Part shown: piece after piece, positions 11,989 to 31,935 of the stretch
Position numbering within the stretch: the stretch's first letter is position 1
Layout of the letters: each line of letters opens with the position of its first letter
Notes under the pieces: model-generated
Seen by the model: only the letters and a program-made list of their open reading frames with translations
Databases searched by the model: none
Told to the model about the DNA's origin: nothing
Made by a program: the position numbers and the translations under genes
DNA from: a virus
Reading direction: 5' to 3' (one strand)
Length of the DNA stretch: 33,871 nucleotides
Virus record (IMG/VR): IMGVR_UViG_3300045996_001800
Span: 1-33,871 of that record

Positions 11989-12627
11989 TCAAGCAGCAGA
12001 TTTCCTCTGCCACTCTGAGAGCAACTTTGCGCCCTTGGAGCAGTTACAACTCCTGCAGGCCGGGACGACATTCTCTGGCGAATCGAGCCCGCCGCGAGAA
12101 ATGGGGATCACATGGTCAACCGTGAGCTTGTCCTCAACTCCGCAGTAAACACAGCGAAAGCCATGTGTTTCGCAGATGGCGCGCCACTGGTCTCGTGTGA
12201 CACCCGGAGAATCCAGAGCCAATAGGCGCAGCTTCCGTCGGATTGATGCCTTGCGGGAATTCTCGCGAACCTTGTCGGGATTTGCTGCAACCCATGCAGC
12301 CATTGCGATGCGCACCTTTTCCGGGTTGCGCCTGCGATACCCGTGCGCTGACTCCCGTTTCTGGACCGCGAAACGCGCATACGCCTCGCGATCCAGCCTG
12401 CGCGCAGCTTCCGGGTCATCGACCCGGCGCTGCCTTCGCCTCGCATTCCACGCGTCTGGGTCCGCCAGATAAACGGCGTGCATCCGAAGTCGGCTACTCT
12501 CGTTTACCGCCTCGCGATTACGGGACTTGTATGCCCTCTGTTGGGCGGCTACCGCTGCCACTCTGCATGGCTCGCAATACTTTGCACGCGGGCTGCTAAC
12601 CGGGGCACCACAGCTGCAGAGCTTCAT
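11989..12627 (-). CDS. HNH endonuclease, free-standing, inserted in tail operon
   Basis: A 212-residue protein. An N-terminal zinc ribbon (CSCGAPV...KYCEPC) is followed by a basic, Arg-rich helical spacer. The C-terminal HNH domain shows CVYCG, then LTVDHVIPISRGGLDSPENV and CRSCNCSKG: the DH pair, the Asn and four Cys of a zinc-bound HNH site are all present. Start ATG 12627 overlaps the stop of the chaperone gene (ATGA). It lies between the chaperone and tape-measure genes, which are normally adjacent, so it is a mobile homing-endonuclease gene. The tape-measure reading frame downstream lacks a normal start codon, which may be a consequence of this insertion. Confidence 0.9.
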   Translation of the reverse strand: MKLCSCGAPVSSPRAKYCEPCRVAAVAAQQRAYKSRNREAVNESSRLRMHAVYLADPDAWNARRRQRRVDDPEAARRLDREAYARFAVQKRESAHGYRRRNPEKVRIAMAAWVAANPDKVRENSRKASIRRKLRLLALDSPGVTRDQWRAICETHGFRCVYCGVEDKLTVDHVIPISRGGLDSPENVVPACRSCNCSKGAKLLSEWQRKSAA

Positions 12628-30330: not shown

Positions 30331-31935
30331 TTAGGCGGCCATCTCGGACCAGTGAGCAATCCGAGCCCGAGCGATCGCCGTGTACTCATCGGACAATTCA
30401 CAGCCGACGAAGCGGAAGCCTTCCAGAGTTGCGGCGCATCCTGTTGAGCCGCTGCCTGTGAATGGATCCAGGACCAGGCCACCGACTGGCGTGATGAGAC
30501 GACAGAGCCAGCGCATGAGGTCGATGGGTTTGACGGTGGGATGGCCATTCGCTCCAATGAGCCCGGCATTTCTCTCCCGCTTGCTCGACTTCGCAGTGTA
30601 GAAGAACCGCGACGGCCCACCATTGTCGCCGCGCGCTGTTTCGGTCGAATCGATCGCGCCGAACATGCCCAGCGTCGCGTCCGGGCGATGCTTGCCGCCG
30701 CTCTTCATACCTGGACGGTTGCCGGCTTGGGCATCGAGGATGGCGCCGGCTTCTTCGTCAAGGATGAGGTTGGCTGGCCAGCGGCCAAGGTTGCAATTGA
30801 AACCCTCGCTGGTGGTCTGTTTCCCATACACGTTGCCTTGTGACCGATGGACCGCACCATCAGCACCACACGGTGAGCGCCTTCCGCTGTGGTCAATCCT
30901 ACACCCGTCGACATTCACCGCCCCCGTCCCCCATTCAGTGAAGTTCGCGGCTAGTGTCCCTGGAAACGGCTTGCGCGCCAGGATGATTGGCTCATGGGCT
31001 GGCTTAAGCGCAACGTTCCACCCCTCGCTGTTTTTGACGGGATTCCACGTAGCATCTCCGAGAGCAGTAACAATCCGGATGCGCATCGAGTTCGCGGATC
31101 CTGCGTTCAAATCTGGACCCGCATAGATTACAGGCCACCGTTCGCCATCGTTCAGGATCTCGCTGACTGGCGTGGTGTTCCCGGATGTGTGAAGACCAGT
31201 CAACCAACTCCAGGTTTTCTCGTCGGTTATCATCTCGCACGCCGTTGATGTGATGGACCTGCTCGCCTCTTTCGAGGCGTCGGCCAAGCTCTCGCTCGAC
31301 AATGACGTCGTGCTCAAGCCGGTAGCCGTGAGCAGTTCGGATCGCAACGTATCCGTCAGAGCGCACAAAGCGACCTCCGCCCCAGTTACCGTTAGCAGGG
31401 CCAGATCGTCCCCTGGCAGGATTTGAACAAGCGCGGCTGCAATAGGTTCCTTCCCCACGCTTGATCTGACTTGGATAGACTTTGAAGTTTGCACCGCACG
31501 CGGGGCACTCTCTGTTGATTGACATATTTCCGCCTGTAATAGCTGATTGGTAATGTTGAGCCCCTTAGGAAACCCCTGGCCATGCAACCATTGCAACTGG
31601 TCGCGAATCTCAAACCCCGCCAGTCGCAACGACAGACCCATCACGTCGACCGTGCGCGAACCGGCGAACACCAACGCATGCGCGCCAGGCTTCAGTACGC
31701 GTAAAACCTCCCGCCACACTTCCGGGCCTGGAACGAACGCGTCCCATTCCTTGCCCATGAAGCCGCGGCCTTTGGCTTTCCACGGTTCACCAGCCAACCA
31801 CGCCGTCAAAACCTCATGCATGTCCGGCGGCTTCCCGAGTCCGTACGGTGGATCGGTCACGCAAGAGTCCACCGAGTTGTCGGCCATCCCGCGCAACGTT
31901 TCCAGGCAATCACCCTGAATCACTTCCCAGGTCAT
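30331..31935 (-). CDS. DNA methyltransferase interrupted by nested HNH gene
   Basis: A 534-codon frame. Residues 1-127 and 304-534 are a class-beta amino-methyltransferase: DSCVTDPPYGLGKPPDMHE (catalytic DPPY near residue 28), WKAKGRGFMGKEWD, QWLHGQGFPKGLN, then EGWNVALKPAHEPIILARKP, GHPTVKPIDLMRWL and the AdoMet-binding LVLDPFTGSGSTGC (185-198 from residue 304). Residues 128-303 do not look like methyltransferase and coincide with an HNH gene in another frame (31004-31525), a 528-bp insertion in multiple of three and without stops. The enzyme may methylate adenine N6 or cytosine N4 against host restriction. Whether the insert is spliced, tolerated or inactivating is not known. ATG 31935 lies 6 nt from element copy 4. 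Confidence 0.85.
   Translation of the reverse strand: MTWEVIQGDCLETLRGMADNSVDSCVTDPPYGLGKPPDMHEVLTAWLAGEPWKAKGRGFMGKEWDAFVPGPEVWREVLRVLKPGAHALVFAGSRTVDVMGLSLRLAGFEIRDQLQWLHGQGFPKGLNITNQLLQAEICQSTESAPRAVQTSKSIQVRSSVGKEPIAAALVQILPGDDLALLTVTGAEVALCALTDTLRSELLTATGLSTTSLSSESLADASKEASRSITSTACEMITDEKTWSWLTGLHTSGNTTPVSEILNDGERWPVIYAGPDLNAGSANSMRIRIVTALGDATWNPVKNSEGWNVALKPAHEPIILARKPFPGTLAANFTEWGTGAVNVDGCRIDHSGRRSPCGADGAVHRSQGNVYGKQTTSEGFNCNLGRWPANLILDEEAGAILDAQAGNRPGMKSGGKHRPDATLGMFGAIDSTETARGDNGGPSRFFYTAKSSKRERNAGLIGANGHPTVKPIDLMRWLCRLITPVGGLVLDPFTGSGSTGCAATLEGFRFVGCELSDEYTAIARARIAHWSEMAA
31004..31525 (-). CDS. HNH homing endonuclease nested out of frame in methyltransferase
   Basis: A 173-residue protein from ATG 31525 with GGCGGA upstream. 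An N-terminal zinc ribbon (CPACGANFKVYPSQ...YCSRACSN) is followed by GPANGNWGGGRFVRSDGYVA, RLEHDVIVERELGRRL, and the HNH core QVHHINGVRDDNRRENLELV with the HH pair and the Asn. A C-terminal zinc finger (CNLCGSRFERR...CYCSRRC) follows. This is a common free-standing phage HNH layout. It reads in another frame of the same strand as the methyltransferase and ends 22 nt into the methyltransferase coding sequence that resumes downstream. Confidence 0.9.
   Translation of the reverse strand: MSINRECPACGANFKVYPSQIKRGEGTYCSRACSNPARGRSGPANGNWGGGRFVRSDGYVAIRTAHGYRLEHDVIVERELGRRLERGEQVHHINGVRDDNRRENLELVDWSSHIREHHASQRDPERWRTVACNLCGSRFERRIRELDAHPDCYCSRRCYVESRQKQRGVERCA

Follow-up and report, generated by a model that had tools for sequence, protein, structure and literature searches.

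Homing elements usually spare the gene that they enter by splicing, at the level of either RNA or protein. In phage Aeh1, the homing endonuclease gene mobE was inserted into nrdA without splicing, and the function of the host gene was retained. A further arrangement concerns the ShiLan domain, which was reported in 2023 as an unexplained insert (Gosselin 2023, PMC9957025) and recognised in 2025 as a hidden HNH endonuclease, encoded out of frame in a phage methyltransferase (MTase) gene (Arsenault 2025, PMC11855218). The published cases of this type are from actinophages; a GTG start was proposed 18 bp into the insert, no ribosome-binding site was found and leaderless initiation was proposed, and RNAweasel gave no intron signal (PMC11855218).

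We describe here a nested HNH gene in the window, by which we mean the whole stretch of 33,871 nucleotides of the IMG/VR record IMGVR_UViG_3300045996_001800. This gene is part of a ShiLan-type element at a new site. Since the nested arrangement has already been published, its observation in an earlier note on this DNA is an independent rediscovery. The features are:

30331-31935, minus strand: DNA methyltransferase ORF with an insert that would be translated through (534 amino acids, beta-class N6_N4_Mtase family)
31564-31935, minus strand: N-terminal part of the MTase, residues 1-124, from motif IV (DPPY) to GFPK (from alignment with HNH-free MTases)
31036-31563, minus strand: putative insertion of about 528 bp, corresponding to residues 125-300 of the MTase (edges drawn from what six same-site copies conserve; segment absent from HNH-free homologues)
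31004-31525, minus strand: HNH endonuclease gene, 173 amino acids, with an N-terminal zinc ribbon, an HNH domain and a C-terminal Cys cluster (Pfam HNH_3, PHROG HNH families)
31529-31535, minus strand: aggcgga, a weak Shine-Dalgarno-like sequence preceding the HNH ATG (anti-SD duplex of -5.8 kcal/mol)
30331-31035, minus strand: C-terminal part of the MTase, residues 301-534, with GWNVALKPAHEPI, HPTVKP and FTGSGSTG (from alignment)
11989-12627, minus strand: HNH/endonuclease VII-like gene, free-standing and the second of this sort in the window, 212 amino acids
26542-26616, minus strand: tRNA gene (Rfam tRNA, 45.7 bits)

The ORF beside the free-standing HNH gene is long and, by eye, tail tape measure-like.

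An HNH gene nested in a methyltransferase gene

The MTase ORF (31935-30331, minus strand) runs without a single internal stop and matches both Pfam N6_N4_Mtase (E=1.2e-23) and PHROG 67, DNA methyltransferase (E=1.6e-63). Motif IV (DPPY, residues 28-31) precedes motif I (FxGxG, here within DPFTGSG, residues 490-496), which is the beta-class order, and both are kept in 21 MTase homologues in the alignment; the predicted fold resembles CcrM (E 1e-9) and M.BceJIV. The claim of the earlier note that DPPY and FTGSGSTG are split by an insert encoding a complete HNH protein is borne out, the 173-residue ORF lying between them. The AlphaFold2 model of the MTase has a pLDDT of mostly 75-97 over residues 1-110 and mostly 78-95 over residues 451-534, and of less than 50 across residues 119-312, one residue excepted.

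The best HNH-free relative found for this MTase is not a close one (55% aa), and the edges of the insert were therefore taken from a protein alignment of the window, four carriers and 17 HNH-free relatives and from the same-site sequences. Comparison with five same-site relatives places the first after GFPK, at about residue 125, and the second after ATWNPV, at about residue 300, with a precision of a few codons; the insert is about 176 codons long and in phase with the MTase. This is the boundary that alignment to intact homologues had been proposed to give: the size (528 bp) and phase first assigned to the insert hold, and its edges move by 8-10 nt, from 31555-31026 to 31563-31036. The spacing from GFPK to ALKP is mostly 6-73 residues in HNH-free MTases, a few of which have other, longer linkers. 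The PY6 methylase, which is the best single-piece match, was considered as a carrier and rejected: it has no HNH, and its extra linker is unrelated.

The HNH ORF starts on the last base of an MTase codon (offset 2) and covers the whole element except about 40 nt. Over 31563-31036, the MTase frame and the HNH frame each contain zero stops and the third frame 10 (8, 5 and 11 in the frames of the opposite strand), which confirms an HNH gene nested out of frame in an MTase gene whose own frame is open. The HNH gene also ends inside the resumed MTase sequence, as had been noticed, with an overlap of about 32 nt instead of 22 nt and its stop codon within the codons for ALK.

The HNH protein matches Pfam HNH_3 (E=1.2e-10), and its AlphaFold2 model has a mean pLDDT of 84. 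The best solved structure in VIA-align is I-HmuI (Z 7.1, 71 residues, 3.1 A); Foldseek alone gave no confident solved match, and among the sequences of solved structures the matches of the HNH profile were all weak and to zinc ribbons. The likeness to the I-HmuI-type homing endonucleases lies in the HNH core; however, I-HmuI is carried by a self-splicing phage group I intron, and none was found at the window locus.

The window HNH starts with ATG, unlike the published ShiLan GTG start without a ribosome-binding site. Its Shine-Dalgarno-like duplex is equalled by 17% of random positions and is therefore not significant alone. Across the HNH family, 41 of 54 members are at or below -5 kcal/mol, versus 24% of random positions, a family count that is inflated by the choice of the best start for each gene. 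In contrast to the published descriptions, most members would thus have such a site before an ATG or GTG near the zinc ribbon, often GGAGG at a distance of 4-7 nt, and this includes ShiLan itself.

Relationship to the ShiLan domain and other known systems

A tblastn search with the window HNH retrieved one cyanophage methylase and, from mycobacteriophages, genes with a DNA methylase annotation, the best phage matches being Mantra, Starcevich and ShiLan (49-51% over 91%, E 1e-34 to 3e-36). All six loci that were checked have the same HNH offset and an open MTase frame; offset 2 is common to the window and to L002-L006, among which L003 is ShiLan itself. The window therefore resembles the ShiLan domain (mycobacteriophage ShiLan gp65 and others) in its HNH family (about 48-52% to the Mantra and Bipolar HNH), its phage MTase family, frame offset, open host frame and disjunct distribution, and in having no intron signature. 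It differs in position. The ShiLan site lies between ALK and PxxEPI..ARKP, and this is not where the window element sits: its insert is about 10 codons upstream, after GFPK and before GWxxALKP. Since GWNVALKPAHEPI is intact downstream of the insert, we regard it as a variant at another site and not as a ShiLan-site element; its position was not found in the ShiLan-type descriptions (PMC9957025, PMC11855218).

Two other systems have to be compared. Pacc40 gp60 (PMC11855218, section 3.6) is likewise a phage methylase that holds an HNH-like ORF in another frame, at a non-ShiLan site; it is set apart, going by its description, by a helicase-methylase host that aligns poorly to the ShiLan methylase and by a different HNH-like protein. 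The genes-in-pieces arrangement of mobE and nrdA resembles the window in the unspliced insertion and, presumably, in the retained host function, but the host there is split into two ORFs while the window MTase remains one. A split form of this kind appears to occur for the HNH family of the window, in L018 and L166, where the HNH gene lies beside an MTase gene in pieces. Both of these pieced genes (L018:1638-4889 and L166) also have an intein-like insert before GFPK.

The searches gave about 84 nested loci, near-duplicates counted, and a scan of genome contigs gave one relative only. Five other IMG/VR contigs (L163, L164, L165, L167 and L169) share the insertion position of the window, and nearly all the remaining nested loci are at the ShiLan site. 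L163 has the closest same-site HNH (71-72% identity); an internal stop suspected in this gene was rejected, the apparent stop being its natural end. An HNH-like ORF with the same frame offset is nested near HPTxxVKP in the MTase of L066 (3001-3249), and might represent a third insertion position; only 83 codons were matched.

The relationships among carriers point to mobility. The HNH DNA at the ShiLan site is 90-99% identical while the MTase flanks are 45-86% identical, as expected for transfer between diverged MTases. At the site of the window, a clade of the five complete MTases is rejected in a tree built without the insert columns (p-AU 1.8e-5), and the corresponding HNHs may form a clade (p-AU 0.66); the shapes of these trees are rough, because the branches are long. 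A first HNH tree, which included long free-standing rows, left the window unplaced, and a second one with the same-site relatives grouped it with L163, L165 and L018 with modest support. The carriers thus have a disjunct distribution, which implies homing.

Two further elements were noticed. An in-frame LAGLIDADG insert (WLAGLIDGEGCF) of a type already reported in 2023 is present in the same MTase family in L002 (925-3249, Mantra gp64). This MTase is a hotspot for homing elements. In the large terminase gene of L070 (2075-4490), an HNH-like ORF lies out of frame within an intein-like insert with Hint-like ends (CFPHGTPII and VADSHTYFANGILVHNC), so that an intein may also hold an endonuclease in another frame.

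The open frame and its explanations

The open frame of the window is in itself a weakly improbable outcome, one that 4-11% of synonymous-codon shuffles also give (P 0.04-0.11), and proves little. These values leave room for the idea that the insertion has inactivated the MTase and left the HNH as the sole functional product, in which case the open frame would result from HNH composition or from recency; that the insert is large (176 residues), located in a conserved part and disordered in the AlphaFold2 model is also in line with this idea. The family data are decisive. In 60 non-redundant nested HNHs, the MTase frame contains 0 stops, versus 91 expected when codons are permuted inside each gene and 287 from local codon usage; the third frame of the same set has 606 stops (631 and 534 expected, respectively). 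The corresponding frame of free-standing HNH relatives is usually closed, with 362 stops in 76 genes (a mean of about five; 347 expected with permuted codons and 318 from local usage). The set of 60 was picked by the openness of the MTase frame, and nesting was therefore redefined as having MTase motifs on either side, whatever their frame. All 50 non-redundant HNHs found in this way have both motifs in one frame, with zero stops. The G+C content of the nested set ranges from 0.28 to 0.65, and the frame is open also in loci at 28-37% G+C, where openness is not expected. The family HNHs beside MTase genes in pieces (L018 and L166) have 9 and 12 stops in the MTase frame.

Selection argues in the same direction. 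In pairs of ShiLan-site carriers, the HNH frame has an omega of about 0.1-0.36 (in most pairs), the MTase flanks have one of 0.12-0.40, and the insert, when translated in the MTase frame, has one of 0.66-1.6, all of them simple Nei-Gojobori estimates that are biased by the overlapping frames and, for several flanks, affected by saturated dS. Purifying selection acts on the MTase flanks and on the HNH, and is absent on the peptide that the insert encodes in the MTase frame; it seems that the MTase requires an insert with an open frame but makes no demand on its particular sequence. In one record, L058 (3001-3441), the HNH frame is stopped (KP-stop-RVRRG) while the MTase frame is open, which may mean that the HNH is decaying or that the record has a sequencing error, and which, if real, does not fit an MTase that has become dispensable. 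With catalytic motifs kept in many diverged carriers and with flanks under such constraint, we think that an inactivated MTase is unlikely, and that the "broken but not yet decayed" option of the earlier note loses ground.

The second alternative invokes splicing, either by a minimal group I intron or by a self-splicing element of an unrecognised kind, with an open frame that is incidental. Group I introns often carry HNH genes, I-HmuI is the best solved fold match, and insertion in a conserved region is also a habit of introns. However, Rfam intron models had no match at E 5 in the locus, nor in seven sources searched at gathering score (all matches being to tRNAs, apart from a chance one to a snoRNA), in agreement with the RNAweasel results for the published cases (PMC11855218). 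The roughly 40 nt of the element that are left by the HNH ORF are too few for an intron core, and splicing would not require an insert free of stops, of which none was observed versus 91-287 expected. As for protein splicing, the published cases lack an intein signature; the MTase ORF of the window matches no intein family in Pfam or PHROGs and by eye has no intein-like ends. RNA splicing, which was among the options raised at first, is consequently very improbable. Finally, a segment native to the MTase and overprinted by the HNH frame would also have both frames open, but this hypothesis is hardly credible, since none of the HNH-free homologues aligned (among which a case keeping the segment was looked for) has it, the HNH frame matches widespread free-standing HNH families, and amino-acid constraint is on the HNH frame and not on the MTase frame.

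Probable translation through the insert and its implications

We consider it very probable that a homing endonuclease gene sits in the MTase gene and is tolerated, without splicing, because the host frame is translated through it. Of the readings considered at the outset, translation with a 176-residue insert is thus the one that the data favour, the frame being always open in the family, A+T-rich genomes included, and the flanks being under purifying selection. In the scenario that we propose, a mobile HNH homing endonuclease gene would have entered the linker of a beta-class MTase gene without an intron or an intein. Ribosomes coming from the MTase ATG would read through it, and the enzyme that they make, which presumably still methylates, would have a catalytic half (DPPY) and a SAM-binding half (FTGSG) joined by a disordered loop of about 176 residues, rich in Ser and Thr. 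Others, starting internally at the HNH ATG, would make a nuclease from the same bases in the other frame. Cleavage by this nuclease would fall near the site in MTase alleles that have no HNH, repair would copy the element in, and the copies that persist would be those that leave the host frame open.

One may go further and imagine that the nuclease and the MTase, being read from shared bases, act together as a minimal unit of modification and cutting. The methylation that we ascribe to the insert-bearing enzyme would then influence where the nested HNH cuts, and the element would thereby protect its own genome while it attacks insert-free relatives. We think this coupling very improbable.

While homing elements spare their host genes by splicing in most cases, this HNH family appears to use a third way, in which an alternate frame is left open for translation of the host gene to continue. 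The principle has been known since 2025 for mycobacteriophages (PMC11855218), and the view of the earlier note that dual-frame coding after homing would be unusual holds only in part, since it is recurrent in this family. The window and about 80 further loci extend the arrangement to diverse phage contigs and to two or more positions in the MTase family, and add to it a measurable selection signature and split-gene controls. Annotation overlooks HNH genes of this kind, each being enclosed in a longer gene call, and the arrangement offers a clear case of overlapping-gene birth.
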